Source of the DNA: Chitinophaga agri
GTDB lineage: Bacteria; Bacteroidota; Bacteroidia; Chitinophagales; Chitinophagaceae
Direction: 5' to 3'
Assembly: GCF_010093065.1 (NCBI RefSeq)
Contig: NZ_CP048113.1
Location: 558,001 to 622,000 of the forward strand
Length of the DNA: 64,000 nt
Both the position numbers and the translations under genes were made by a program. The notes beneath the pieces are model-generated. The model did no database searches and had not been told where the DNA came from. It was given only the letters and a program-made list of their open reading frames with translations. Position 1 is the first letter of the stretch; every line of letters starts with the position of its first letter. Positions 1,783 to 51,106 of this stretch are shown piece by piece.

Positions 1783-2895
1783 TTATTGTGCCCGGTTTCC
1801 CTTCCTCTTAGCTGTCAGATACTTACGTACCGGTGTGTCATACGCCACCATCGCGATGTAGGCCAGACCCACCAATACCAGCAGACCTATGCAGATGATA
1901 CCGGTCAATTGTGCAGTACCGGGTTTGTACTGGGTATAGTAACCGGCAAATGCCCACATTACCGCATAATGTACCATGTAGAGCGGATAGGAGATCTTAC
2001 CGAAGAAATGACAGATGCCCTGTACCAGTTTGCCGGGTTGTGCGCCGGCGCCGAGTGCCAGCAGGAAAGGAAAATACAGGGTAACGATCACCAGTTCCAC
2101 CAGCCAGTTCTGTCGGAAGACTGGTATCAGCAATGCCAGCAGCAGTAAAACTGTCAGGCCGGAAAAACCCAGTTTATTCTTAATGATCATGTTATAACGA
2201 TAGACCAGCATCCCCGCGAGGAAAGAGAAGGCAATACGCGCGCCACCATGCCACCAGTTGTCACTGCTCCAGCCACCCATCAGGTTTTGTGCTGTGTAGG
2301 CAATATAGCCTAACCAGCCAGCGGCCAGTATCACCAGGATCAGTAATACACGTCTGTGAAGTTTCCATAGGATCACTCCATAAACAATATTGGCCACATA
2401 CTCCCAGAAAAGTGACCAGCACGGTGCATTCAGGCCGAACAGGTTGAAGGCTCTTTCTCCCATCACCGGAAAAGGCGCCATCAGGATAGACGCCAGGAAG
2501 ATGAGTGCCAGTTTCCCGAAGTTATAGCTTTCAGGTACGGATGCGAACGGGTCAAACAGAAAGGCCAGTAAACCCAGTACAGACCCGAGTACGACCAGCG
2601 GATGTAAACGAATGATACGGGAGATAAAGAACTCGCCAAGACCGATCTTCTCAATACGGTTATCATACGCATACGCAATCACAAAACCACTCAGGCAAAA
2701 GAAAAAGTCTACCGCCAGAAATCCGTGTCCGGCAAAGTTTGTCTTAGGATCGGTATATACTATTTCCAGAAAATGAAAGGCCACTACGACGATGGCCGCT
2801 ACACCACGTAGCCCGTCCAGTATCTCGAAATGTTGTTTTGTTTGCAGTAGATTCTTCCGCTCCGGCGGTGCTGTGATGGTCCCCGTAGTTATCAT
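1783..2895 (-). CDS. Acyltransferase 3 family membrane protein (OafA/YrhL type)
   Basis: A 370-residue polytopic inner-membrane protein with about ten hydrophobic segments. The N-terminus I-L-D-G-L-R-G-V-A-A, the conserved His in the first membrane segment (V-V-V-A-F-H-F), the stretch D-F-F-F-C-L-S-G-F and the R-I-I-R-L-H-P loop are characteristic of acyltransferase 3 enzymes. These move acetyl or other acyl groups onto extracytoplasmic sugars, such as O-antigen, exopolysaccharide or peptidoglycan. No partner glycan gene lies next to it, so the acceptor is unknown. The gene diverges from the hybrid sensor gene at 3027 with about 130 bases between. Confidence 0.9.
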   Translation of the reverse strand: MITTGTITAPPERKNLLQTKQHFEILDGLRGVAAIVVVAFHFLEIVYTDPKTNFAGHGFLAVDFFFCLSGFVIAYAYDNRIEKIGLGEFFISRIIRLHPLVVLGSVLGLLAFLFDPFASVPESYNFGKLALIFLASILMAPFPVMGERAFNLFGLNAPCWSLFWEYVANIVYGVILWKLHRRVLLILVILAAGWLGYIAYTAQNLMGGWSSDNWWHGGARIAFSFLAGMLVYRYNMIIKNKLGFSGLTVLLLLALLIPVFRQNWLVELVIVTLYFPFLLALGAGAQPGKLVQGICHFFGKISYPLYMVHYAVMWAFAGYYTQYKPGTAQLTGIICIGLLVLVGLAYIAMVAYDTPVRKYLTAKRKGNRAQ

Positions 2896-3026
2896 GATTC
2901 GATTAAAGTAAGTGCGGAAGATAGAAAAATAATTTCCAATTCCTGCTTCTATAATAAGTGTACATTAAACAATAAAACCGCTGAATAAATAAATTTCCTT
3001 ATTTTAACCGCAAAGAATACAGTATA

Positions 3027-6000
3027 ATGCGGTGGACAATGATGTTATGGCTATGCCTTGCAGCGAAATCTCTATTTGCTGCGGGTGAGCCGCCCAGAAA
3101 TCTAAGTATAGAAAATGGCCTATCCAACAACGCTGTATTAAACGTATACCAGGACTATAAAGGTTTCATGTGGTTCGGTACTTATGATGGTTTGAATCGT
3201 TATGATGGCTACAAATTCAAGATCTACAGAAATAAGATAGGCGATTCCACGTCCCTTATCGATAACGGGATATATACTATGGACGGCGACTCTGACCACC
3301 GGTTATGGATCGGCGGCAGAAAAGGTATCAGCGTGTTTGATCCGGTAACTGAACAGTTCTCCGTGGCCAGATTTGCTACCGGCAAACTGGTGCAGGGGAA
3401 CATTCATATTATAAAGGCCGGTAACGGCGGACTGGTACTCGTTGGTTCCGAGAATAATGGTCTGATACAGTTCAGCCAGTGGCCCGGCACCGGTAAACAG
3501 ATACCCCTGGAAAATAACATCAGCTATGAAGTCACCGCTATCGAATTCACACCTGATAAATCAGCCGCCTTTGTTTTCGTACAGCATGTAGGTCTTTGCA
3601 GATACGATTGCCGCAAAGGGACCATGACTGTGCTCAACCGTACTATCACACTTGGTAACTGCCTGAAGGCAGATAAGAAAGGGATGCTCTGGCTGGGTAC
3701 AGAGCAGGGCATTTTCAGTTATAATGATGGCTGGTCTGCCAACTATCTGAAAGAGAACTGCAATATCGTGAACCTTTGCGCCGATCAGGGGGGCGCTATA
3801 TGGGCCGGATCAGATGGTCATGGGATCTTTATCGCCAAAGATGGTCACGCAGCGCACAGTCAGCAGACACTGACCAGCAACGCGGTCTATTCTATCTGTG
3901 AAGACCGGGAAGGCCGTAAATGGATCGGTACCTTACGTGGCGGGGTCAATATCATTGACGCCCGCAAACACCTCTTTGAGCAGCATGCATTTACCGGCAC
4001 TGTAGAGAACTTTATCCTTTCCTTCTGTGAAGGTGCGGGCAGGCATGTCTGGATCGGTACAGATGGTGGTGGACTGAAATACTGGGACCGCGAAGCCAAT
4101 ACCTTTAAGATCTACAAATACAGCCCTGCCGTACCAGGTGCGCTCAGCAGCAACTTTATCACCAGCATGGTGCAGGACGGACAGGGCGATCTCTGGATCG
4201 CCACCTGGTTTGGTGGGCTGAACCGCTATAACCGCCAGCAGGATGCCTTTGAACAGTTTCACTGCTTCAATCCGTTCACAAAGGCAGAAGAAAATAACGT
4301 ATGGGTGGTCTATGAAGATGCCAGAAAACAGCTATGGGCCAGTACCACCAACAATGGTACACTGTACCTTTTCAATCGTGCAAAGAATAACTTCGAACTC
4401 TTTGATAAAACCCTCGTCAATATCCAGTGCCTTGCGGAAGATCGCAAAGGCAATATGTGGGGCGGTAATTATTCTGGTCTTATCAGAATAGACCGCGACA
4501 ACCGGCAGCACCACACCTTCCCCCTGGGATATACCGTTCGTTCCATCCATGAGGACAAACGCGGGAACCTCTGGGTGGGTACAGAAGGAGGAGGTTTACT
4601 ACTCGTAGATGGTGCGACCGGGAAATTCACCCGCTTCACGGAAGCAAATGGACTGCCCAGTAACACCATCCTGCGCCTGCTCGAAGATAATAAAGGCTTC
4701 CTCTGGCTCACCACTTTCAACGGACTGGCGAAGTTCGACCCGGTGCTGCATACTTCCCGTAACTTCTCCCGTTCTGATGGTCTGCAAAGCAACCAGTTTG
4801 CCTACAATGCCGCCCTGAGACTACGCTCCGGTGAGTTCCTGTTCGGAGGTATCAACGGGTTCAATGTCTTCTATCCGGATAGTATCTATGAACGGAGCAG
4901 CTTCGCCCCGGTATTCCTGACCGGTATCCGGATCAATAACAGCCCGGTACAGCAGCAGACCGACCTCGTGTCCGCACGCTCCCTGGAGAATATTGAAGAG
5001 GTGACCATTCCGTATAATAAGGCGGCCATTTCCCTGGATTTTGTCTCACTGGAATACACATCTCCCGATAAGATCAGCTATGCCTATTTACTGGATGGCT
5101 GGGACAAGAACTGGAATGATGCGGGGGAAGCCCGGTCAGCTAACTATACCCGTTTGCAGGAGGGCCGGTACACCTTTAGGGTCCGGGCGACCAACGCGGA
5201 TGGTAAATGGGGGGAGGAACTACCATTACTGAAAGTCATTGTCCTGCCGCCCTGGTACAGAACGGCCTGGGCATACCTGGCTTATCTCGTACTTATCTCC
5301 CTGGTGATCTATGGTTATATAAAATATAAGTCCCGCCAGGAAAGATTGAAGTATGAGATCAAGCTTGCACACCTGGAAAGCGAAAAGGAAAAAGAGATCA
5401 ATGAAAAGAAACTCTCCTTCTTCACCAATATTTCACACGAGTTCAGAACGCCGCTGACACTGATCATCAATCCGCTCAAAGAGCTGAAAGATAATGAGAA
5501 ACTGGGTGTTGTTTACCGAAATGCCAGAAGACTACTCAGTCTCGTGGATCAGCTGCTGTTATTCCGTAAGGCAGGTAACGACGAACTGAAAGTCGCCCGC
5601 TTCGACATCGTGGCGCTCTGTAATGAAGTGTTCCTCTGTTTCACCCAGCAGGCAGAAACCCGGCATATCAGTTACCAGTTCGTGACGGCCGATGCGGCAG
5701 CCGATGTATATGCCAACTATGAACAGATTGAGATCGCATTATTTAACCTGCTCTCCAACGCCTTCAAGTTTACGCCGGATGGCGGGCAGATCTCCTGCGA
5801 GGTGACTGGTACCGCCAGTGAGGTAAAGATCACGGTCACTGATTCGGGATCGGGCATCCCAGCGCATATGCAAAGCCGCATCTTCGACAAGTTCCAGCAG
5901 GCCGACAGTACACAGACTGGTTTCGGGATCGGTTTATACCTCGTGAAGCAATTCATTGAAAACCATCATGGTAAAGTGACTTTCAATAGTACGGTGGGGC

Positions 6001-41084: not shown

Positions 41085-42233
41085 TCAGGCCGTCAGTTTA
41101 TTTATTTCCGCAAAGACTTTACTATTAAAATCATACGGTTGTCCTGTCAGGTTATACAGAGGTAACAGGTCAGTATACTGTTGCTCAAAAGCTTCGTACT
41201 GCGCAAGGAACAGCGCATACCACCCGGCCCCTTCCTCCTGGAATATATTGAGCTCTGCAAACATATCCAGCGACAGCTTAAACCGCTGCATATGGAAGAT
41301 AAACCGGCCCTTGATATCATCCTGCTGCAAACGTGTGAATCCGGGCTTGTCAATACAGCCCTGTAAGGTTTTGGTGATCTCCATGAAGGTGAACATGCCG
41401 TGGAAGAACAGGTATACACTGGGGTAATGACCAGGATTGCCAACCAAATCTCCCAGGGGAGTGTTATGGCTGATGGTGAACAGGTGTTGTTTTGTTTCGT
41501 AGGTGAGCGTGAAGTAAGTGACATGCGCACCTTCGTGAGAGATGTGGTCAGCGAAGAAAATTTCATCGTCCCATGGATTGACATGCAGGAAGATCATGTT
41601 GTGGGCCGATAGTACAGCGAAGGAATTCTGGTGGGTGGCAGTGAAGAGCATCGCCTTCTTCAGATTTTTGAGCAGCAGTCCGAAGTGATCCGGGTTTAGC
41701 TGCCGGATAAGTTCCATGCCTTTATTGAACGATGTCAGGTGTTGCTGATGTAAGCCTGCCACATGGACGTCTTCAGGAGGGTTGCCCTGTTCGGTGAATA
41801 CATTCATGAGCAGCGGGTGATGGTCAGTAACGATCTCTATGCCATGATCACTGTAGAGTAGGGGTTCGAACGTAAAGGGGATCTCGTTTTCTCCATCGAG
41901 TAACGTCATAGTATCGCCGGTTGTACGAAGCAGGAGAGCGCTGCCGGTGAACGAGGTGCGAAGGTAACCGGTATTAGGTAGGTAGATGAGCCCATTGCAG
42001 TTTGGAAACACAGTGATGAGTGGTTTCCTGGATCGCTCATAACCATAAATGATGCAGTCCAGCCATTTGTTGTCCTGCTGTTGCAGATAGGTGTATAGCA
42101 AGGGCTCCAGGTAAATGTTGTCATTGTAAAAATCAATGCGCTGGAAGATATCTTTATGTCTGGCATAGAGTAGTTTCTTTACGGAGTCAACAACGGCGCC
42201 CAGATGATCTTCAAAGTTCTCATAGTAGTTCAT
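41085..42233 (-). CDS. HExxH-motif putative peptide maturation protein (RiPP cluster)
   Basis: A 382-residue cytoplasmic protein with no signal peptide or membrane span. It carries H-E-G-A-H at residues 233-237 in the context F-F-A-D-H-I-S-H-E-G-A-H-V-T-Y-F, a zinc-metallohydrolase signature. The region is preceded by a strand with I-F-L-H-V-N-P-W-D-D-E. HExxH proteins of this general kind occur beside ribosomal peptide natural-product genes, where they are thought to act on the peptide. I place it there by context and motif, not by a confirmed family match. It starts one base after the HlyD stop and is the last gene of the run gwsG, small ORF, gwsS, ABC, HlyD, HExxH. Confidence 0.7.
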   Translation of the reverse strand: MNYYENFEDHLGAVVDSVKKLLYARHKDIFQRIDFYNDNIYLEPLLYTYLQQQDNKWLDCIIYGYERSRKPLITVFPNCNGLIYLPNTGYLRTSFTGSALLLRTTGDTMTLLDGENEIPFTFEPLLYSDHGIEIVTDHHPLLMNVFTEQGNPPEDVHVAGLHQQHLTSFNKGMELIRQLNPDHFGLLLKNLKKAMLFTATHQNSFAVLSAHNMIFLHVNPWDDEIFFADHISHEGAHVTYFTLTYETKQHLFTISHNTPLGDLVGNPGHYPSVYLFFHGMFTFMEITKTLQGCIDKPGFTRLQQDDIKGRFIFHMQRFKLSLDMFAELNIFQEEGAGWYALFLAQYEAFEQQYTDLLPLYNLTGQPYDFNSKVFAEINKLTA

Positions 42234-42234
42234 A

Positions 42235-43536
42235 TCAATAGGTATTTTTATTAATGATGGAATTAAATAGTCTGTCGTACAAGGTGAGATCCTCTACGAT
42301 GATATCCGCCTGACCGGTGAGTTCACTTTTGTTGTCCAGGGGTTTGTGTAATGTGGTCACCAGGTGGTTGGGGAGCTGTACTTTCACACTGTAGAAGCCT
42401 TCTTTGACAGCAGCAGATATGGCAGTGACAGTGCCTTTTAACATGCCGTATTCAGTATACGGATAGTTGTTCAGCCGGATATTACATTTTAGTCCTACCC
42501 TTACTTTACCCGAGTTGGTGACCGGTAGTTTGGCAATAGCAAAATATTCCTCTCCGGATACTGGCGTGACGGTAAAGACCTTCTGTTCATTACTCAGGAA
42601 CTGATCAGCCGTTCTGATATCGTAAAAGTTCAATACGCCGCTTACCGGTGCGTCGAGTACATATTTATTTTGCCATTCAGTAAGCTGGAAGGTAAGGTCA
42701 CTATAGGACTGAAAGATGTTTTTACGCAGGGTGAACAAGGTGTTGTCATAGTCAGCGGCAAGGGTAACATTCTCTTTGTTGAGTGCCTGTTCCTGCAGCT
42801 GATTGTTAATCCGGCTGTTGTTGAGTTCTTCGAGGATGTTCTGTGTATTGAGATAGCTGATCTCTTTCTGTTCCACTTCTGTTTTGGCAATCACGCGCAT
42901 GCTATCCAGCAGTTTGTTCCTGTCGAAGTCCGATTTGGATAACAGACTCTGACGTTGCAGGATGGTCAGTTTATTTTGTAGCTGTTTGTTAAGCGCGTTC
43001 ATGCTTTTCGCCCTGTCCGCATTGATGGTGAGCTGCCGGTGCTGGATATTCAGACGGTTAAACAGGCGGAGTTCTTCCACGCTTTTGTAAAAGCGGGCAT
43101 ATCCTGACTGCATATCACCAAGAGCGGTCAGCTCCTCGAATTTCACCGTATCTATTTTTTCCCAGAATGCAGGGCCTTTTACATTTTTAAGGATGTCGCG
43201 CAGCCGCAGGACTTCCTGGTAGCTGGCACTGTTGTATAATACCATGACCCATTCACCAGCGGTGACGGTGTCCTGGTCGGCCTTTAGCAGACTTACAATC
43301 CGGCTGCTGACACGGTTGTGTACGGTCACGGGTGGCGTATTGGTTGTCACCACTGCTTCAGTTGTGATGACATCCGGATAGCGTACGATCTTCATCCCGA
43401 TGATGATGATGAGCAGTATCACCAGCATGCCGGTGCTGCCATAGGTAATGATCCGGGAGGGAACCTTGTCCAGTATATCCTGGAAGTATTCGCTGCGGAC
43501 ATTGATCCTGCTTATTTTTTGTTCGTCAATTGGCAA
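42235..43536 (-). CDS. HlyD-family membrane fusion protein (RiPP exporter)
   Basis: A 433-residue periplasmic adaptor. A short cytoplasmic N-terminus is followed by one membrane span near 33-52 (G-M-L-V-I-L-L-I-I-I-I-G), a lipoyl-like half-motif (V-H-N-R-V-S-S-R-I-V-S-L-L), a long coiled coil (about 140-260, repeated Leu/Gln/Asn), the second lipoyl half (D-A-P-V-S-G-V-L-N-F) and a beta-barrel region. It should link the C39-ABC transporter to the outer membrane. Its start overlaps the ABC gene by 11 bases, which indicates coupled translation. Confidence 0.9.
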   Translation of the reverse strand: MPIDEQKISRINVRSEYFQDILDKVPSRIITYGSTGMLVILLIIIIGMKIVRYPDVITTEAVVTTNTPPVTVHNRVSSRIVSLLKADQDTVTAGEWVMVLYNSASYQEVLRLRDILKNVKGPAFWEKIDTVKFEELTALGDMQSGYARFYKSVEELRLFNRLNIQHRQLTINADRAKSMNALNKQLQNKLTILQRQSLLSKSDFDRNKLLDSMRVIAKTEVEQKEISYLNTQNILEELNNSRINNQLQEQALNKENVTLAADYDNTLFTLRKNIFQSYSDLTFQLTEWQNKYVLDAPVSGVLNFYDIRTADQFLSNEQKVFTVTPVSGEEYFAIAKLPVTNSGKVRVGLKCNIRLNNYPYTEYGMLKGTVTAISAAVKEGFYSVKVQLPNHLVTTLHKPLDNKSELTGQADIIVEDLTLYDRLFNSIINKNTY

Positions 43537-45748
43537 TTTCTAACTGATTTTTGATTAATGTATGATAGTAGCCCCTGCGCTCTACGAGTTCTTCATGGCG
43601 GCCTATTTCCCTGATCTCACCTTTGTCCAGCACGATGATCTGGTCAGCCCGTCGAACAGTACTGAGGCGGTGTGCAATGATGATCACGGTTTTGCCTTCG
43701 AAGAAGGTGTCCAGGTTTTCTACGATCTTTCTTTCATTATTGGCGTCGAGCGCACTTGTAGCTTCATCGAAGAAGAGGAATTCGGGATTTTTGTAAACGG
43801 CCCTGGCGATCAGGATACGCTGTCGTTGTCCGCCACTCAGTGTTCTGCCACTGGACCCCGCCGCGCCAATGATGGAGTTGAACCCGGCAGGCAAAGCATT
43901 GATCAGTTCCTCTATGTTGGCTATTCTGGCGGCGTTCAGCAGTTTGTTAATGTCGACGTTTTCATCGCTTGCCGATTCGGTGATGTTCTGTGTGATCGTA
44001 TCGGAGAAGATGTATCCATCCTGCATCACGGTGCCGCAGAGGGAACGCCAGTTGTCGGAGTCAATATGCCGCAGATTGTAATTGCCTACCATGATGTCGC
44101 CGGCGGTGGGCAGGTAGAGTTTGAGGAGTAGCTTAAGCAGTGTTGTCTTACCGCTGCCGCTGTCTCCCACGATGGCAGTTATTTTACCGCGCGGAATGGT
44201 CAGGTTCAGGTTCTTCAATACAGGCGCATTCAGATCTTTCACATAGGAGAATGTGAGGTCTTTGATATGTATATCATAGTTCTGAGCGGGGATCTTCATA
44301 AGCGAGTGATCGTTCAGCTGTTCCTGCTCGGGCGTAATATGGTCGATATCAGCGAACCTGTCCATGCTGAGGCGTGCGTCCTGTACGGAACGGAAGAAGC
44401 TCACCAGGCCGAGCATGGGACCGTTGATCTGGCCTACGATGTATTGGATAGCCAGCATGACGCCCAGGCTGATCTGTCCGTCCATTACCAGCAGGGCAGA
44501 GGAAAAGGTGATGAGGATATTTTTCACCTCATTGATGACGTTACCACCAATGCTTTGAAACTGCGTCAGCTTAAGAGAGGATACAGATGTTTTGAAGTAA
44601 TCGACCCTTACCCGTTCCCAGTCGCGTATATGTTTTCTTTCAGAGCCGTTCACCTTTACTTCCTGTATGCCCCCGACGATCTGTATGAGCTTACTGTTCA
44701 TGCCGGATGAGGAGTCAAACCGGCGGAAGTCCAGCTCCGCGCGTTTCTTCATGAATGCCCATACCCAGGTTGTATACAAGGCGATACCCACAATGAAGAT
44801 TAAGAAGATGCTCCAGCTGTAGTAGGCCAGCACTCCCAGGAAGATAGTGGCATTGAGATAGGAAAAAAAGGCATCAGGAGCTGTAGACAGAAAGGCGTCC
44901 AGCCGGGAAGATTCATTGATGCGCTGTACGATGTCACCAGGTGTTTTGGAGTCGAAGAACGAGACCGTTTTGCTGAGCAGCTTGACAAGGTAGTCCGAAG
45001 AGATGAGCATGTTGATACGGGCGGCTACATACAGCAACAGCCAGCTCCGGATAGCCGCTATGAACGACATACTGAAGAAGAGCATCAGCTGTGCGAGGAG
45101 CAGCACGTAGACGAAGTTCAGGTTATTGAGATTAATGCCCTTGTCTACCAGCTTTTGTGTGAGGAAGGGGAGTACGAGTTGCAGGATACTACCCAGGAAT
45201 AATCCGAGGAAGATCTGCAGGATATATCGGCTGTAATTTTTTATATAGGGGAAAAGTCCCAGCAGTCCTTTTGCCGCTTCGGTATTCTTTTGCTCAAAGA
45301 ACCGGGAAGAAGGCTCCATCAGTAACACGATGCCTTTTGTCGTCTCATCGGCCAGCGCATTGTTCTGCCAGGCTTCGATGAACTCTTTTTTGCTGTAGGT
45401 CAGCAAACCATGAGAGGGGTCGGCTACTTTGATCATTCCTTTCTCAAAGGCGTATACAATGAGGAAGTGGCGGTCGCGCCAGTAGGTAACACAGGGCAGG
45501 GGCGCTTTTTGTTCCAGTACTTCATAGGAGATGGAAGCAGGAACAGTTTTGAATCCCAGTGTTTCAGCACCTTTCATCAGTGATTTGATGGTGATACCAT
45601 CCGGCGTGATGTTACAGATGTCGCGCAGGTGTTCGGAGCTGAAATTCCGTCCGTAGAATTTGGAGATGATCTTCAGACAGGCGGGTCCGCAGTCAAACTG
45701 ATCTATCTGTTTGAAAAACGGGAATTTCTTTTTCTTGAATAGATTCAT
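43526..45748 (-). CDS. Peptidase-containing ABC transporter (C39 type) for peptide export
   Basis: A 740-residue protein with three parts. An N-terminal C39 cysteine peptidase (about 1-140) has catalytic Cys in Q-F-D-C-G-P-A-C, His in W-R-D-R-H-F-L-I-V-Y and Asp in V-A-D-P-S-H-G. Six membrane spans occupy about 160-440. An ATP-binding domain has Walker A G-D-S-G-S-G-K-T-T, signature L-S-G-G-Q-R-Q-R and Walker B F-L-F-F-D-E-A-T. Such transporters cut the leader of a peptide at a double-Gly-type site while exporting the core. The gene follows gwsS with 41 bases between and should handle the precursors encoded upstream. Confidence 0.96.
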   Translation of the reverse strand: MNLFKKKKFPFFKQIDQFDCGPACLKIISKFYGRNFSSEHLRDICNITPDGITIKSLMKGAETLGFKTVPASISYEVLEQKAPLPCVTYWRDRHFLIVYAFEKGMIKVADPSHGLLTYSKKEFIEAWQNNALADETTKGIVLLMEPSSRFFEQKNTEAAKGLLGLFPYIKNYSRYILQIFLGLFLGSILQLVLPFLTQKLVDKGINLNNLNFVYVLLLAQLMLFFSMSFIAAIRSWLLLYVAARINMLISSDYLVKLLSKTVSFFDSKTPGDIVQRINESSRLDAFLSTAPDAFFSYLNATIFLGVLAYYSWSIFLIFIVGIALYTTWVWAFMKKRAELDFRRFDSSSGMNSKLIQIVGGIQEVKVNGSERKHIRDWERVRVDYFKTSVSSLKLTQFQSIGGNVINEVKNILITFSSALLVMDGQISLGVMLAIQYIVGQINGPMLGLVSFFRSVQDARLSMDRFADIDHITPEQEQLNDHSLMKIPAQNYDIHIKDLTFSYVKDLNAPVLKNLNLTIPRGKITAIVGDSGSGKTTLLKLLLKLYLPTAGDIMVGNYNLRHIDSDNWRSLCGTVMQDGYIFSDTITQNITESASDENVDINKLLNAARIANIEELINALPAGFNSIIGAAGSSGRTLSGGQRQRILIARAVYKNPEFLFFDEATSALDANNERKIVENLDTFFEGKTVIIIAHRLSTVRRADQIIVLDKGEIREIGRHEELVERRGYYHTLIKNQLEIAN

Positions 45749-45789
45749 AGCACTTGGCTCTTATGGTAAACAATTGCACAGGATCTCTT

Positions 45790-46791
45790 TTACCAGGTGT
45801 TTTCCTGCTGATTGAACGTGCACATATCTGTTTTGTAATACTTGTCGTTTTCCTGCCTGATATCACTGTTACTGACGCAGGCATAACGGTATTGACAATT
45901 TTTACAGTCTTCGATCTGGTCATTGGAAAGCAGCCATTTTTCGCGGAATGCAGGGAGGTTGATGACGGTCTCCAGTTTTTGTTCATTCGCGTGGCCAAAA
46001 CTCCGGGCATGGGATATATAATTCCGGATGTTCCCATTACTGTCTATGGCTACTTTCCGGTTCAGGCCCAGGTTGTGCGACTGGGCTTCCGTAAAGCTGA
46101 TAATGTTGGGAGAGAACCTTTCCGGCCGGATCTTTTCACGGGTTTCCTGCCTGATGTCTTTTTTGAAGGCGACCACTTTTCTGCCAAAACGGTCGTTGTC
46201 ATTATAAAGAATGGCATCTGCTGCCGCAGCATATACGAATACCCTGCGCAGGCGGGGTTGCAGATCCATGAGGGACACCCATTGTGTTGCATCAGTCTCG
46301 CCGGCAGGGGCCATGATCTCACAATAGCTGATCTGTGTACCGGAAAGCGCCTTCAGTATCACCTGCGTTATCTGAGCGGTACTGAAGCAACGAAGGAGCC
46401 GTATCTGTATTGCCTGGCAATTCAGTTCATTGAGTTGTGCAATGACTGCAGAAAATGAATAGCTATCAGTATCGTCCAGTTCCAGGATCGCATTGGTGAT
46501 ATGACGGGGCATCTCCCAGGAAAGATCGATATCGGGGAAGCGTTCGGGTTCTGTAGTATAGAACGCAATTTCTTTTTCTACGAACTTGTTCATGAACTGT
46601 TTGATCTGGGGATAGCGGGTCTCGCCATAAACCTCCGGTAGTTGTCCGACAGGCGTTGATGTTGCTTCCCGGAGAATATCGAGGAAGGCATTGGGGAGAT
46701 CGTAAATAACGGAGCGGTCCAGGTCATAAATGGCACTGCTGTGTTGACCAGCCACAATCCGGCAGGATGCGAAGAATCTAAACCATTCCAT
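45790..46791 (-). CDS. gwsS: SPASM-domain peptide maturase of a grasp-with-spasm system
   Basis: A 333-residue protein. The N-terminus has the family pattern F-R-F-F-A-S-C-R-I-V-A-G with S-A-I-Y-D-L-D-R-S-V-I-Y-D-L-P. The middle has D-L-S-W-E-M-P-R-H-I-T-N-A-I-L-E-L-D. The C-terminal SPASM region has cysteines in C-K-N-C-Q-Y-R-Y-A-C and a later Cys in T-D-M-C-T-F. There is no C-x-x-x-C-x-x-C, so a normal radical-SAM cluster site is absent, as in this family. It works with the ATP-grasp enzyme on a precursor peptide. It starts directly after a small ORF that fills the gap to gwsG. Confidence 0.85.
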   Translation of the reverse strand: MEWFRFFASCRIVAGQHSSAIYDLDRSVIYDLPNAFLDILREATSTPVGQLPEVYGETRYPQIKQFMNKFVEKEIAFYTTEPERFPDIDLSWEMPRHITNAILELDDTDSYSFSAVIAQLNELNCQAIQIRLLRCFSTAQITQVILKALSGTQISYCEIMAPAGETDATQWVSLMDLQPRLRRVFVYAAAADAILYNDNDRFGRKVVAFKKDIRQETREKIRPERFSPNIISFTEAQSHNLGLNRKVAIDSNGNIRNYISHARSFGHANEQKLETVINLPAFREKWLLSNDQIEDCKNCQYRYACVSNSDIRQENDKYYKTDMCTFNQQENTW

Positions 46792-46793
46792 CG

Positions 46794-47000
46794 TTACAGA
46801 ATATTGGAGATCGCTTTATAAAAAGGCAAAATCACATAGGACGATGTGTGATGCAGATGGCTGTGCACGGTAGTGGGTGCGGAGGTGACCTTCTCACTGA
46901 TGCTCCTGACGAAGAGGTAATAGTTGACAGGTAGTGCAGTGGCCAGTTCCGGTGGAAATGGCTGCAGGGGAACAGGGGGGTGCTGAGGGTAATTATGCAT
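46794..47000 (-). CDS. Small ORF between gwsG and gwsS
   Basis: A 68-residue open frame whose ATG overlaps the gwsG stop by eight bases and whose stop is two bases before the gwsS start, so it fills the gap exactly. The sequence starts M-H-N-Y-P-Q-H-P-P-V-P and is Pro-rich, then becomes more hydrophobic (N-Y-Y-L-F-V-R-S-I, S-S-Y-V-I-L-P-F-Y-K-A-I). I do not recognise it. It may be a short chaperone, a precursor-like peptide or just a translational coupler. The tight overlap is the main evidence that it is expressed. Confidence 0.5.
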   Translation of the reverse strand: MHNYPQHPPVPLQPFPPELATALPVNYYLFVRSISEKVTSAPTTVHSHLHHTSSYVILPFYKAISNIL

Positions 47001-47979
47001 GGTGTGAAAGGTATTGTGCGATTTTTTTATCCAGTTGATAGTTACAGGGAACGGAGGTCATATCATATTGTCCTACAGGATTCACCTCGAGGAAAACATA
47101 ACGGCCACTGCGCGTCTTTACAAAGTCCAGTGAGCCGGTATTCAGCTGCATGAGCTGCATGAGCTGTATGATCAGTAGCCGGACATTCTCTGGGAGGAGA
47201 TAGGGCACATTTCTGTTATTGGTGTATTTTCTGAAGTCGACTTTCGTTTGCTGGTCCATTTGAGAGAAGATCGCCATGGCGTAGCAGGCCCCATTGAGAT
47301 AGAAGACACGTAAGTCCAGTTCTTTCTCCAGTTTTTCCTGGAAGAGCGAATAGAAGAATGTTTCGGGAATGTCAGCAAGGACGTCCGGCGTGATCTCTTC
47401 CGTATAACTGGTGTAGTGGATCGTCTTCTCCTGTTTAATGGTGATTCCGGGGCTTTCCCAGAGCGCTTTGGTGATTACTGGGCCATGTGTATCAAAAAAC
47501 GCCTGCAGCTCCTTTTTGGAGCGCGTAATGAGCGTTGCGGGGACATCCAGTCCCAGTCGCTGAGCTGTGATGAGTACCTCGATCTTGTTGACACTCGATC
47601 TATTGAAATTTCCCAGTATCCGGGTGTTCGTGGCTAACAGTGCGAACAGGGCTTTTTTAGCAATAGCGTTCTCCTGACTCAGATGGTGGACGATGTCGGC
47701 GTAGTAGCCAGTTGTCTGCAATGAGGCAATAGGCCGTGTGTCTGGCGCTTTCGTACCATCTCTCCGGTACCATACCGCCGTAATATCCGACAGTGCATCC
47801 GGTAATTCACCGTTGAAATGCATGTCTGTCTGACTACCGCTTACCTGGATGGTAGGAGCATGTGCGGCATCCAGGAGGTCGGAACCATTCATACGGCGGA
47901 AGGGTGTTCCCATATAACGCAGCCAGTCGATCACTTTATCGGTGGAGGGTTCCAGGTCTTTGGAAATTAGAAGGACCAT
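46993..47979 (-). CDS. gwsG: ATP-grasp peptide maturase of a grasp-with-spasm system
   Basis: A 328-residue cytoplasmic ATP-grasp ligase. The N-terminal part is a pre-ATP-grasp domain (V-I-D-W-L-R-Y-M-G-T-P-F-R-R, V-W-Y-R-R-D-G). The ATP-grasp core has V-I-T-K-A-L-W, F-Q-E-K-L-E-K-E-L-D-L-R-V-F-Y-L and the catalytic-site block S-L-D-F-V-K-T...F-L-E-V-N-P-V-G-Q-Y-D. Relatives of the MvdC/MvdD group join side-chain carboxylates of Asp or Glu to Ser, Thr or Lys in the core peptide, giving esters or amides (graspetides). The precursor gene ends 79 bases upstream. Confidence 0.9.
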   Translation of the reverse strand: MVLLISKDLEPSTDKVIDWLRYMGTPFRRMNGSDLLDAAHAPTIQVSGSQTDMHFNGELPDALSDITAVWYRRDGTKAPDTRPIASLQTTGYYADIVHHLSQENAIAKKALFALLATNTRILGNFNRSSVNKIEVLITAQRLGLDVPATLITRSKKELQAFFDTHGPVITKALWESPGITIKQEKTIHYTSYTEEITPDVLADIPETFFYSLFQEKLEKELDLRVFYLNGACYAMAIFSQMDQQTKVDFRKYTNNRNVPYLLPENVRLLIIQLMQLMQLNTGSLDFVKTRSGRYVFLEVNPVGQYDMTSVPCNYQLDKKIAQYLSHHA

Positions 47980-48058
47980 AGGTGATAAACAGGTTTAAAC
48001 AGGTATAGTGATGTCAAGCAAATGCTGACATCACTATGATCAATTAAATCAGTACATG

Positions 48059-48259
48059 TTATGGACGCAGTGTCAATGATGAATCGAATTCAACCAGCTG
48101 TTGAAGTTCTGCTTCATGATCAACCCAGTCAACAACACCATTAGGATCAGGATTACAGGTGGTATGGCATGCGGCAGCAGCCAGACCGAGCATCTTTTCG
48201 ATCTCATTGTCCGTGTTGATCTCATTAATGGCAAAATCATCCAGCGATAATCTGTTCAT
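48059..48259 (-). CDS. RiPP precursor peptide 1
   Basis: A 66-residue peptide with the leader M-N-R-L-S-L-D-D-F, then E-I-E-K-M-L-G-L-A-A-A-A-C-H near 19-32, and a core starting T-T-C-N-P-D-P and ending in D/E- and L-rich sequence. It closely resembles the precursors at 48361 and 50885 in leader and junction. The core has two Cys, four Thr/Ser residues and many Asp/Glu, which suits ester or amide cross-linking by the ATP-grasp enzyme. It is directly upstream of gwsG (79 bases), separated from precursor 2 by 101 bases. The leader end has G-L-A-A-A rather than a plain double Gly, so the C39 cleavage site is not certain. Confidence 0.85.
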   Translation of the reverse strand: MNRLSLDDFAINEINTDNEIEKMLGLAAAACHTTCNPDPNGVVDWVDHEAELQQLVEFDSSLTLRP

Positions 48260-48360
48260 GGGGAAGATTTTAGTGTGGTAAAACGATGGGTAACAGGGCT
48301 ATGCTACAAACATGTCCGACAGGTTACATTTTGAGGTGTGTACTAGTGGGAATTGCCTTA

Positions 48361-48576
48361 TCAGCGCATCAGGGGGCTAAGCGTAAGCTCCTCTCTTTCC
48401 ACTGCTGCCAGCTCGGCTGTATAGTCTACAAAATCGATGTAAGTAGCATCGGGCTGAGGATTACAGGTCTTGTGGCATGCAGCAGCAGCGAGACCCATGA
48501 GCTTTTCGATTTCGCTGTTGCTGTCAGCAACATCCAGTTGGAAATCGTCTAATGACAAACGTGTTGTTTGTTTCAT
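48361..48576 (-). CDS. RiPP precursor peptide 2
   Basis: A 71-residue peptide with leader R-L-S-L-D-D-F, then E-I-E-K-L-M-G-L-A-A-A-A-C-H and a core K-T-C-N-P-Q-P-D that again has Cys-x-x-x-Cys (C-H-K-T-C) and a D-F-V-D-Y-T-A-E-L segment. Leader and Ala-Ala-Ala-Cys-His block are nearly identical to precursor 1, while the core differs, so the same enzymes probably process several products. It is the first gene of the gwsG/gwsS side. It has its own upstream region divergent from the aldo/keto reductase (48577-48791). Confidence 0.85.
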   Translation of the reverse strand: MKQTTRLSLDDFQLDVADSNSEIEKLMGLAAAACHKTCNPQPDATYIDFVDYTAELAAVEREELTLSPLMR

Positions 48577-48791
48577 AACCTATATGTTTTTGTTGTTAAG
48601 AATAAATAAATTTATATTTAAATCCAGAGATATCCAATAGGGAAAGGTATTTGAATAGCATTATTTTTTGTCCCTGTATAACAGGCAGGAAGTAATAATA
48701 GGTATTCTTTTACGTTAGTATATCCGGCTGTTGGAAAATTGTAAAATACCCACTTCAAAACCCTTATCAGACCTCACAAAAATCACTTTTC

Positions 48792-50093
48792 ATGATACAA
48801 CTGCACGAACTGAGCAAGATCGGATTTGGTATGTACCGGACGTCCGAGAGTAACCAGGAACATCTTGAAGCCTTATTGCACGCTGTAAGCAACGGATGCA
48901 ACCTGCTGGACACCGCATCCAATTATGAAAATGGCGCGTCGGAAATGCTTGTTGCCAAACTGCTGGAAGTTGTTCCGCGTGCGCAGTTATTTATTGTGAC
49001 CAAGGCAGGATACATCAGCGGTGATAATTTAGTGGCCTTCAGAAAACTGCAGGAATCAGGTAAGGGCTTAAGCGATGTCGTAACGATCAGCGACACCTTC
49101 CTTCATTCCATGCATCCTGAATATCTCCGTTTGCAGATCGACACTTCATTGCGCCGCATGGGTACGACCTGGCTCGATGGTTTCCTGCTGCATTCTCCCG
49201 AATACTTCTTTGAACAACCGGCCGCAATGGCGAGTCAGGAAGAATACTACCGCCGTTTTGAACAGGCTTTTGCTTTCCTGGAGTCAGAGGTGGCAGCTGG
49301 CAGGATCCGCTATTATGGTGTCAGTTCGAACACACTGAGTATAACAGATGGACCGAAAGCGACTGACTTGTCAAAGCTGATAGCTGTTGCTACACGGGTG
49401 ACTACAGCCAATCATTTTAAACTGATACAATTTCCTTTTAACATCATCGAGCACCAGGCGGATGTACATGTACCAGCGAGCGAAATGAGTTTGCTGGAGC
49501 TGGCTGCCCGGCATGGTATCCGTACATTTGGTAACCGTCCGCTGAATGCGAATGCGGCCAATGGCATGTTGCGTATGGTGATCTACAATGTGCAGCAGTT
49601 TTCCGTTGATCCTGCAGCTGACGAAGCCCTGCACGCTGACTGTTTTGCCTTGCTGGAACGACAGTTGCAGCAGAAGAAGCCGGGTAGTAGTCTGAATGAT
49701 TTTGCATTACTGGCCTTTCTGAGAGACAACTGGAAAGTCATTCCGCATGAGGAGGCATTCAATAAGCTGTTCTATGGTACATTATATCCCATTGCGCGTT
49801 TGCTATATGATAATAGTATACCGGCAGAGGCGTTGCAGCTGTTACGTTCCTTTCAGCAGGTTTGCTGGCAGTATTGCCTGCAAACATCTACGGGAAGGGT
49901 GATCAGCTGGCTTCGGGAGAACGGTCATGAACGACTGATCCCAACGACGCCCGGTGATACGCTTCCGTTGTTACTTTGCAGGGAGTACCTGCATCGTGGT
50001 CTGGATCATGTACTGGTAGGCATGCGTCGTATGCCGTACGTAGATGAACTGAAGCCGGTATTTCAGCCGGTATCACCTGTAGATACCATTTAA
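48792..50093 (+). CDS. Aldo/keto reductase embedded in the RiPP cluster
   Basis: A 433-residue protein. The AKR fold and catalytic set are visible: I-G-F-G-M-Y-R, Asp and Tyr in L-L-D-T-A-S-N-Y-E-N-G, Lys in V-T-K-A-G-Y and His in F-L-L-H-S-P-E-Y. Family members usually have about 300-330 residues. The extra 100 or so are C-terminal (from about residue 300) and helical, with a final region V-L-V-G-M-R-R-M-P-Y-V like the cofactor-binding end of AKRs. It would reduce a carbonyl with NADPH. It runs against the other genes of the cluster, between precursor 2 and the DUF6624 gene, and converges with the latter with a 4-base overlap of stop codons. A role in peptide tailoring is only inferred from position. 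Confidence 0.85.
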   Translation: MIQLHELSKIGFGMYRTSESNQEHLEALLHAVSNGCNLLDTASNYENGASEMLVAKLLEVVPRAQLFIVTKAGYISGDNLVAFRKLQESGKGLSDVVTISDTFLHSMHPEYLRLQIDTSLRRMGTTWLDGFLLHSPEYFFEQPAAMASQEEYYRRFEQAFAFLESEVAAGRIRYYGVSSNTLSITDGPKATDLSKLIAVATRVTTANHFKLIQFPFNIIEHQADVHVPASEMSLLELAARHGIRTFGNRPLNANAANGMLRMVIYNVQQFSVDPAADEALHADCFALLERQLQQKKPGSSLNDFALLAFLRDNWKVIPHEEAFNKLFYGTLYPIARLLYDNSIPAEALQLLRSFQQVCWQYCLQTSTGRVISWLRENGHERLIPTTPGDTLPLLLCREYLHRGLDHVLVGMRRMPYVDELKPVFQPVSPVDTI

Positions 50094-50773
50094 TTTTTTA
50101 CCTGCTTTTTAAAGAAGTCTGCTTCTATGGCCGGCAGTTCCTTTGCATATTGTGCAGCATCCCATTTCATGTCAAAGGGAGAAAGGTACTCCGCCATGGA
50201 AGGCAGTCCCATGGTGGCTCGCCGCTTGTCTACCTGTTCAGGATCTTCGAGTGGAGCAACCTGGTAGTGATTGGTGCGCATGTCCCATATTACCTGACTT
50301 CCGTACAGTTGACGTTTGCCGTGATGCAGGGCCACACGGTCTTCCAGCAGTGCCAGGCTTTTAAGTGCTGCTTTCCCGTTGGCAGCAGCGGCACGCATGA
50401 CCGGCAGGTATTTATCCTGGGCCTGAATGCCTGCATGCTGTATGACCATGAATAATGTTGTGTTACCTTCCCTGCCTATTTCATCTGCACCGAGCCAGCC
50501 AAACTGGTCAATGATAGCGGCTACCTTCAGCAGGTTCAGGGAATCGGCAACCGCCATTTTTCTGAACAGCGTTTTCATTTCAGGGGAGTCTCCACCGTAC
50601 TTGCTTTGCACGCTTTCCAGCTGTGAACGATATTGCTGATCTGTAGAGGCGGTTGTCGTCAGTATCTGTATGATAGAGTCTTTTTGCACAGGCGTTAAAA
50701 CCTTTTGCTGGCCAAAGACAGTATTAACCAGGCAAAGCATCAGCAATATTATATATGCGGGATAATATTTCAT
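50090..50773 (-). CDS. DUF6624-like secreted protein
   Basis: A 227-residue protein with a signal peptide (V-N-T-V-F-G-Q). It contains the block I-D-Q-F-G-W-L-G-A-D-E-I-G and F-M-V-I-Q-H-A-G...K-Y-L-P-V-M-R-A-A, and the closing region L-A-L-L-E-D-R-V-A...G-K-R-Q-L-Y-G-S-Q-V. This W-x-G...Q-H-A...R...Q-x-Y-G-T/S-Q pattern is what I know of DUF6624. The function is unknown. It is found here just after precursor 3 in the same direction (111 bases), so it may belong to a second small transcript of the cluster. Confidence 0.75.
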   Translation of the reverse strand: MKYYPAYIILLMLCLVNTVFGQQKVLTPVQKDSIIQILTTTASTDQQYRSQLESVQSKYGGDSPEMKTLFRKMAVADSLNLLKVAAIIDQFGWLGADEIGREGNTTLFMVIQHAGIQAQDKYLPVMRAAAANGKAALKSLALLEDRVALHHGKRQLYGSQVIWDMRTNHYQVAPLEDPEQVDKRRATMGLPSMAEYLSPFDMKWDAAQYAKELPAIEADFFKKQVKN

Positions 50774-50884
50774 TGGGACTGTTTACCGGTTCAACGAAAG
50801 CGTATAATACGTCATGAAATGACAGGCAGAAGGCTGTACAGTACCTCCTGCCTGCACTTTAACTCAATGCGTTTGCGTTACTGA

Positions 50885-51106
50885 TCATGGAAATGCGACA
50901 AAATCTCTTTCCAGGCTCAGTTCAGGAGCTGCTTCAGCGAGACCCCATTCGTAGTCGATCAGGGTAACACTGCCATCATCATTTTTGTGTGGTCCGGTAA
51001 CGTGGCAACCAGCTGCTGCCAGTCCAAGCATTTTTTCTACTTCGTTACCTGAGTTAACTGCTTCCATCTGGAAGTCTTCAAGGGTTAAACGTTTTTCGCT
51101 TTTCAT
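50885..51106 (-). CDS. RiPP precursor peptide 3 (orphan copy)
   Basis: A 73-residue peptide with leader M-K-S-E-K-R-L-T-L-E-D-F and E-V-E-K-M-L-G-L-A-A-A-G-C-H, matching precursors 1 and 2. The core differs: V-T-G-P-H-K-N-D-D-G-S-V-T, so the second Cys of the C-H-x-T-C pair is replaced by Gly and the following N-P-x-P is lost. It is separated from the other precursors by the reductase and the DUF6624 gene, about 2.3 kb from precursor 2. The product would be processed by the same enzymes in trans. Confidence 0.8.
   Translation of the reverse strand: MKSEKRLTLEDFQMEAVNSGNEVEKMLGLAAAGCHVTGPHKNDDGSVTLIDYEWGLAEAAPELSLERDFVAFP

Follow-up and report, generated by a model that had tools for sequence, protein, structure and literature searches.

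What are an HExxH protein and an aldo/keto reductase (AKR) doing in a gene cluster for ribosomally synthesised and post-translationally modified peptides (RiPPs) that already encodes ring-making enzymes? The question is raised by positions 41085-51106 of the window, by which we mean the whole 64,000-nucleotide stretch of Chitinophaga agri DNA analysed here (contig NZ_CP048113.1, positions 558,001 to 622,000); the element is a grasp-with-spasm (gws) cluster, and the host is a soil bacterium with a 7.97-Mb single-contig genome. A first-pass annotation made from the sequence alone had suggested that these extra genes, together with several precursors, could mean a modified peptide type not described before. 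Our reading, to which we give a probability of about 55%, is that a grasp-with-spasm graspetide cluster has acquired a second, independent tailoring module acting on an invariant Cys-His pair of its precursors.

Gene content and conservation of the cluster

The grasp-with-spasm identity proposed in the first-pass annotation is borne out by both maturases, each above its curated cut-off: the ATP-grasp ligase GwsG, the graspetide synthetase (46993-47979), scores 293 bits against TIGR04192 (cut-off 230), and the SPASM protein GwsS (45790-46791) scores 206 bits against TIGR04193 (cut-off 175). The solved structures nearest to GwsG are AMdnB (7m4s), CdnC (7mgv) and 5ig9. The three small open reading frames (ORFs) reported to share a leader and junction are indeed there, as precursors B (48059-48259, junction GLAAAACHTT), A (48361-48576, GLAAAACHKT) and C (50885-51106, GLAAAGCHVT), with the common outline RL[ST]L[DE]DF...G-L-A-A-A-[AG]-C-H; pattern and profile searches of the host genome gave these three Cys-His (C-H) precursors, all within this cluster. 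Their cores have the conserved Thr/Ser and Asp/Glu expected of a graspetide, T37 being present in 12 of 12 Chitinophaga precursors and D51 in 11, the twelfth precursor being truncated. These two residues are the likely, if putative, linkage positions. The two extra enzymes also stand as described, one a 382-residue protein with HEGAH at residues 233-237 (41085-42233) and the other an embedded AKR (48792-50093), the only gene of the cluster on the plus strand; all others lie on the minus strand.

The three precursors, gwsG, gwsS, the ABC and HlyD export genes and the genes for the HExxH protein, the AKR and a DUF6624 protein recur, in the order of the window, in three orthologous loci (L045, L046 and L047). 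Their loss from related genomes would have spoken against the early proposal; the precursors, the HExxH gene and the AKR gene are all kept. Among the 79 genus genomes searched, only the three that hold these loci (G017, G041 and G067) have a further close ortholog of the HExxH protein (66-89% identity). The co-occurrence of these genes extends to Aureispira, which belongs to the same order as the host and to a different family: HExxH, AKR and gwsG/gwsS are together in L075, and genome G374 (L083 and L094) has gwsG, gwsS, AKR, HExxH, a CARME-like methyltransferase and six C-H precursors. A second genome, G448 (L084 and L095), has AKR, HExxH, CARME and four precursors, and no gws genes in the stretches examined. 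The Aureispira gwsS scores 187 against TIGR04193, above its cut-off of 175; the gwsG of L075 reaches only 205 against TIGR04192, below 230, yet this is its best family. In L094 of G374 the gwsG frame is interrupted (2034-3029), and in L075 it is intact. A 3-kb contig of Pedobacter cryoconitis (L067), in which a piece of gwsS, HExxH and DUF6624 adjoin, is a further sign of the combination outside Chitinophaga, though its length is insufficient for precursors to be seen.

Association of Cys-His precursors with HExxH genes

HExxH loci were gathered from a species collection (17 loci) and from genome searches, which found homologs in 9 of 79 genus, 10 of 396 order and 6 of 395 phylum genomes. They fill 32 rows standing for 31 distinct loci (L082 and L075 being one locus), with near-copies among them (L075/L083; L052/L053/L054; the four Chitinophaga orthologs). 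Left out were L065 and L066 (identical to L047 and L046), the 3-4.2-kb contigs L067, L077 and L081, of which L081 alone has the motif, and L089 and L093, which have no full HExxH ORF; in the genome of L093 (G618), that stretch does contain a precursor hit. Small ORFs beside the HExxH genes have a leader starting LxLxxF/L, followed by G-[GQLM]-x4-Cys-His. A strict form of this pattern matched 48 ORFs, one of them a false positive (L046, 3915-4151), in 29 of the 32 rows, or 28 of the 31 distinct loci (619 kb, all rows), as compared with none in 11 control gws loci (189 kb), none elsewhere in the window and one in 1.8 Mb of shuffled sequence. Since the pattern is nearly absent from shuffled sequence and from the rest of the window, the precursors are not a product of chance. 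The motif had been seen before the pattern was fixed in the window cluster and in L045-L047, L068-L070, L073-L075, L078, L082-L084, L091 and L092; 13 of the 16 HExxH loci unseen until then carry the strict pattern, the misses being L051, L087 and L088.

Profile searches associate the two in whole genomes as well. Among the 395 phylum genomes, precursor hits at E<1e-9 fall exactly in the five with a convincing HExxH hit; with weak hits included, 5 genomes are common to the sets of 6 and 7 (Fisher 1.6e-9, relatedness ignored). In G618 the HExxH match is split into two short pieces. Within the genus, hits at E<1e-10 occur in 10 of 79 genomes, among them all nine with HExxH, and two further genomes (G050 and G013) have weak hits only. 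Searched against 5.8 billion proteins, the precursor profile, which itself includes C-H, gave 357 hits, and the best 120 of these all read G-[GQL]-x4-C-H, have no Pfam domain and bear, where source names are shown, only the labels hypothetical or uncharacterised; the residue preceding their Cys is A (73), D (32), G (7), S (6), N (1) or T (1). NCBIfam gave no above-chance hit for the three window precursors and ten C-H precursors from other loci.

The HExxH protein had at first been seen as a plain addition to a grasp-with-spasm system. It is such an addition in the window, but HExxH and C-H form a module that mostly occurs without grasp-with-spasm, gwsG being present in 7 of the 32 rows, or 6 of the 31 distinct loci (partners were scored by tblastn counts in stretches of 12.9-21.2 kb). 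CARME-like methyltransferases accompany it in 15 rows, or 14 distinct loci, and in none of the 11 controls; where tested, they match the Pfam carnosine N-methyltransferase family above its cut-off, and one has a PqqD domain. CARME is missing from the window cluster and from its orthologs, which have gwsG, gwsS and DUF6624 instead. An amidohydrolase and a metallo-beta-lactamase are each found in 3 of the 32 rows; in L076, L080 and L086 an amidohydrolase lies beside or near HExxH, with neither AKR nor CARME in the stretches examined. TonB-type receptors, found in 8 of the 32 rows, are weakened as a mark of the class by their presence in 3 of the 11 controls; such outer-membrane proteins lie near HExxH and C-H precursors in L050, L052-L054, L075, L083 and L084.

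A predicted oxygenase and a private reductase

In structure comparison the HExxH protein has the same fold as ChlB-H. HExxH oxygenases head the list of fold matches, their Z values exceeding those of zincins by a wide margin, although part of the fold is zincin-like. It is thus modelled as an oxygenase fold and predicted to be an alpha-ketoglutarate (aKG)/Fe peptide oxygenase; a plain peptidase was set aside as improbable on these fold matches. The Glu of the motif is present in 21 of 21 aligned sequences, the window protein and 20 closer relatives, and 14 of 64 family members match TIGR04267 at E<=0.01. Two PDB sequence searches with HExxH profiles gave, respectively, no hits and chance hits only. 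The host genome has a second gene of the family (HQWSH, about 23% identical to that of the window) at G000:C1:5478318-5479484 (L051, 8259-9497), with no AKR, exporter or C-H precursor within the surrounding 18 kb; its neighbours resemble the loci of G034, G036 and G068 in gene size only.

The AKR matches PF00248 with 85 bits (cut-off 24), and D40, Y45, K71 and H134 are invariant in 11 of 11 sequences and likewise in a 59-row alignment; we take this Asp-Tyr-Lys-His set to be the catalytic tetrad of the family. The protein probably carries a helical insert, judging from its model. It belongs to a private subfamily: full-length hits occur in 7 of the 79 genus genomes, every one of which has HExxH. 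The database search for this protein scored the 7995 candidates that share most words with it.

A GwsS branch with altered cysteines

The SPASM protein had been singled out for its missing radical-SAM Cys motif. The CX3CX2C motif is indeed missing, but it is also absent from all 30 genus loci examined and was dropped as a special feature, being the family norm. In GwsS of the window, in its three orthologs and in that of Aureispira L094, cysteine is missing at 218, 242, 258 and 308 (window numbering), sites at which 24-26 of the 26 other genus members have it, while C10, C296, C299, C305 and C324 are retained; these are presumably the positions of the SPASM cluster. The five proteins form one branch (support 100/98), on which L094 is long and near-copies are present. 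The altered cysteines and the shared branch suggest that the combination could go back to an old lineage whose SPASM protein has changed. The tree puts the gwsS of G028 (L033) beside this C-H subgroup, but the branches there are long and uncertain.

Remaining genes and layout

The exporter genes are as first annotated. The C39-peptidase ABC protein (43526-45748), predicted to remove the leader and export the product, matches PF03412, PF00664 and PF00005, and the HlyD-type adaptor (42235-43536) matches TIGR01843 at E 7e-20, though under its cut-off. Two genes had been overlooked. One is a 68-residue ORF directly upstream of gwsS (46794-47000), with counterparts in the same place of 75 residues in L046 and L047 and of 66 in L029; by position alone it is likened to the 'LPL' auxiliary protein, whose place is given in PMC8939145, and remains putative as such. 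The other encodes the DUF6624 protein (50090-50773; PF20329, 78 bits), a usual companion of graspetide loci. It was discarded as a special feature, since 3 of the 11 controls (L055, L061 and L064) have a homolog next to gwsG or close to it; the family is frequent in several graspetide groups (passages of PMC13097080). Genes had been described as mostly overlapping or 1-80 bases apart, which holds for several of the gaps (1, -11, 41, 2, -8, 79, 101, 215, -4 and 111 bases in order) and fails for those of 101, 111 and 215. Scans gave no clear signal for promoters (20 found, 14.9 expected) or terminators (12 found, 9.5 expected).

Proposed pathway and rival explanations

We infer the following pathway, in which the residue oxidised, the chemistry, the ring positions, the cut site, the order of steps and any bioactivity are predictions. 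Both GwsG and the HExxH protein would recognise the shared leader. Partnered by GwsS and the small ORF, GwsG would use it to close omega-ester (or amide) links in the tail, the likeliest ring joining the invariant Thr two residues past the His to the near-invariant Asp of [VILF]D[YH]. The HExxH protein, as an Fe(II)/aKG oxygenase, would oxidise the Cys-His pair four residues past the Gly-X site; oxygenation at this pair is proposed because of the oxygenase fold and of the co-occurrence of HExxH genes with C-H precursors. The likeliest oxidation would be beta-hydroxylation of the His, favoured because it is the commonest precedent for aKG-HExxH enzymes: ChlB-H beta-hydroxylates Asp and His (passages of PMC12636437), and further substrates of such hydroxylation are given in passages of PMC13060819. 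With NAD(P)H the AKR might then reduce or re-oxidise the oxygen function so formed, and the C39 exporter would cut the leader near G-L and, together with HlyD, export the product.

Several observations weigh against the early proposal or against our own. As to the former, HExxH is absent from all 11 controls, which are gws loci of the genus (L048, L055-L064), and the AKR is matched in one of them alone, L056, and there in part (176 residues, 29%); the two genes may mark an undescribed peptide type, as first suggested, but their combination is rare among gws loci. As to the latter, the coupling of HExxH with C-H is incomplete in both directions: L051, L087 and L088 (the last two with partial HExxH matches only) have no strict-pattern precursor, G028, the tenth genus genome with a strong precursor hit, has an orphan degenerate C-H ORF and no HExxH, and the gws site of G759 has a C-H precursor with no HExxH in the stretch examined. 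The HExxH protein has no match in NCBIfam, the TIGR04267 cut-off (40 bits) is passed in none of the 79 genus genomes, and 25 of the 33 family proteins of the examined loci have HQxxH, the catalytic equivalence of which is assumed. The AKR is absent from 15 of the 31 distinct HExxH loci and is therefore not needed for the core reaction. As side observations, the orphan ORF of G028 (L116, 9570-9692) has a core resembling that of precursor C, AAAGCHVTGPHKNDDGSVT, and the precursor of G759 (L117, 9506-9736) lies near gwsG, gwsS and a DUF6624 gene, with HExxH elsewhere in that genome.

A last difficulty is that the Cys is as invariant as the His, and plain hydroxylation of His alone would not need it. 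Both residues would be explained if the HExxH protein cross-linked the pair, by a thioether or other bond from the Cys sulphur to the neighbouring His ring or to another core residue, with a small macrocycle or metal-binding site as the outcome and the AKR acting on another group. Cys and His are found in every one of 44 distinct precursors, themselves selected by the C-H pattern, and in the best 120 of the 357 profile hits, and passages of PMC12636437 mention an aKG enzyme that joins Cys to Tyr in a RiPP. This invariance is partly built in, however, because the pattern and the profile used to collect the two sets already contain C-H, and among the aKG-HExxH enzymes in passages of PMC12636437 and PMC13060819 beta-hydroxylation prevails and none cross-links; we consider such a bond unlikely. 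Oxidative cleavage of the backbone, as by PflC, would act on the residue before the Cys: alpha-hydroxylation of this small residue would break the peptide, and the alpha-keto acyl group left on Cys-His would be reduced by the AKR to a hydroxy-acyl cap. It would provide an exact substrate for the AKR, the residue is small or Asp in the best 120 of the 357 hits, and PflC itself cuts at a small residue (passages of PMC12636437). An exporter resembling the C39-ABC protein is nonetheless present in 27 of the 32 rows, the Gly-X site would become redundant, and in the same passages PflC cut only towards the C-terminus of its substrate, which makes this route improbable.

The protein could also be a metallopeptidase for the leader or for immunity, C-H being merely a recognition motif, as the HExxH kept intact in the window protein and in the 20 closer relatives aligned with it, the zincin-like part of the fold and the hydrolysis of a truncated substrate by PflC (passages of PMC12636437) would allow. 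The best fold matches are oxygenases all the same, and the cluster already has a C39 peptidase. Moreover, zincin chemistry would not allow the Gln that replaces the motif Glu in 25 of 33 members, and we find this the least probable of the alternatives. That the cluster makes an ordinary graspetide, with HExxH and AKR as mere passengers, would fit the abundance of gws loci in the genus (28 of 79 genomes pass the TIGR04193 cut-off) and the variability of their accessory genes. Yet both genes are kept in all four orthologous loci, HExxH is tied to the C-H motif across Bacteroidota, and in the tree their GwsS proteins share a branch with the Aureispira one, and we rate mere passage as no less improbable than backbone cleavage.

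The reading of a tailoring module added to a graspetide cluster leads to a wider one, which we hold tentatively, at a little under even chances: that C-H precursors are a Bacteroidota-wide RiPP class of their own, with an LxLxxF/L leader, G-[GQL]-x4-Cys-His and a hypervariable tail. What would define the class is oxidation of the Cys-His pair by an HExxH/HQxxH Fe/aKG oxygenase, after which exchangeable partners would act: the private AKR, a metallo-beta-lactamase, an amidohydrolase, a CARME-like His methyltransferase or, as in the window, the grasp-with-spasm ring maker. A metal-binding or uptake-related product is thinkable, given the TonB-type receptors of some loci, which controls have too. 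The motif beside an HExxH/HQxxH gene offers a sequence handle on many unnamed precursors and points to the site of modification. The cluster suggests that two separate RiPP systems work on one precursor, each with distinct conserved residues, and each enzyme can therefore be tested by removal. If true, aKG-HExxH chemistry would reach a branch of divergent sequence that can seemingly do without the motif Glu, and a private reductase would be on offer whose substrate may be an oxidised Cys-His pair.

Comparison with known systems

In the open literature neither the C-H motif strings nor 'grasp-with-spasm' were found, nothing joined an aldo-keto reductase with a RiPP and HExxH, two papers contain both HExxH and graspetide, and nothing relevant appeared on SjiH; subscription journals were mostly uncovered, and a description there is possible. 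'HExxH' and 'Chitinophaga' occur in neither of the main texts of PMC13097080 and PMC8939145. The C-H/HExxH module may be an undescribed RiPP class. Its precursors resemble the TIGR04149/pinensin-type leaders of Bacteroidota in the short leader, hydrophobic LxL start and GG end, but only chance-level hits to that family were obtained (E 0.59 and 0.73; one of the ten C-H precursors from other loci), and none for the window precursors. The HExxH protein shares with the aKG-HExxH peptide beta-hydroxylases (ChlB-H, BpmH, PflC/PosC and PesO) the ChlB-H fold, the motif and a RiPP setting; it differs in having no significant direct sequence match to them and in its link to C-H precursors, and its relatives differ in their frequent HQxxH. 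Corallotide, as described in passages of PMC13097080, is likewise a graspetide additionally hydroxylated by an Fe/2-oxoglutarate (2OG) enzyme, but it has another precursor type, comes from another organism, and its enzyme is termed a divergent 2OG oxygenase.

Grasp-with-spasm graspetides (TIGR04192/TIGR04193) are the nearest relatives of the whole cluster, and presumably correspond to branch 5 in PMC8939145 and to group 14 in PMC13097080; the latter assigns SPASM to graspetide group 14 and DUF6624 to groups 18, 20, 23 and 42. The ATP-grasp and SPASM proteins, the C39 exporter, HlyD, DUF6624 and the small protein before the SPASM gene are shared, whereas the window cluster adds the HExxH oxygenase, the private AKR and Cys-His precursors, and its GwsS is without several cysteines. 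Grasp-with-spasm itself is already known; as a graspetide cluster, this one is a new variant of it.

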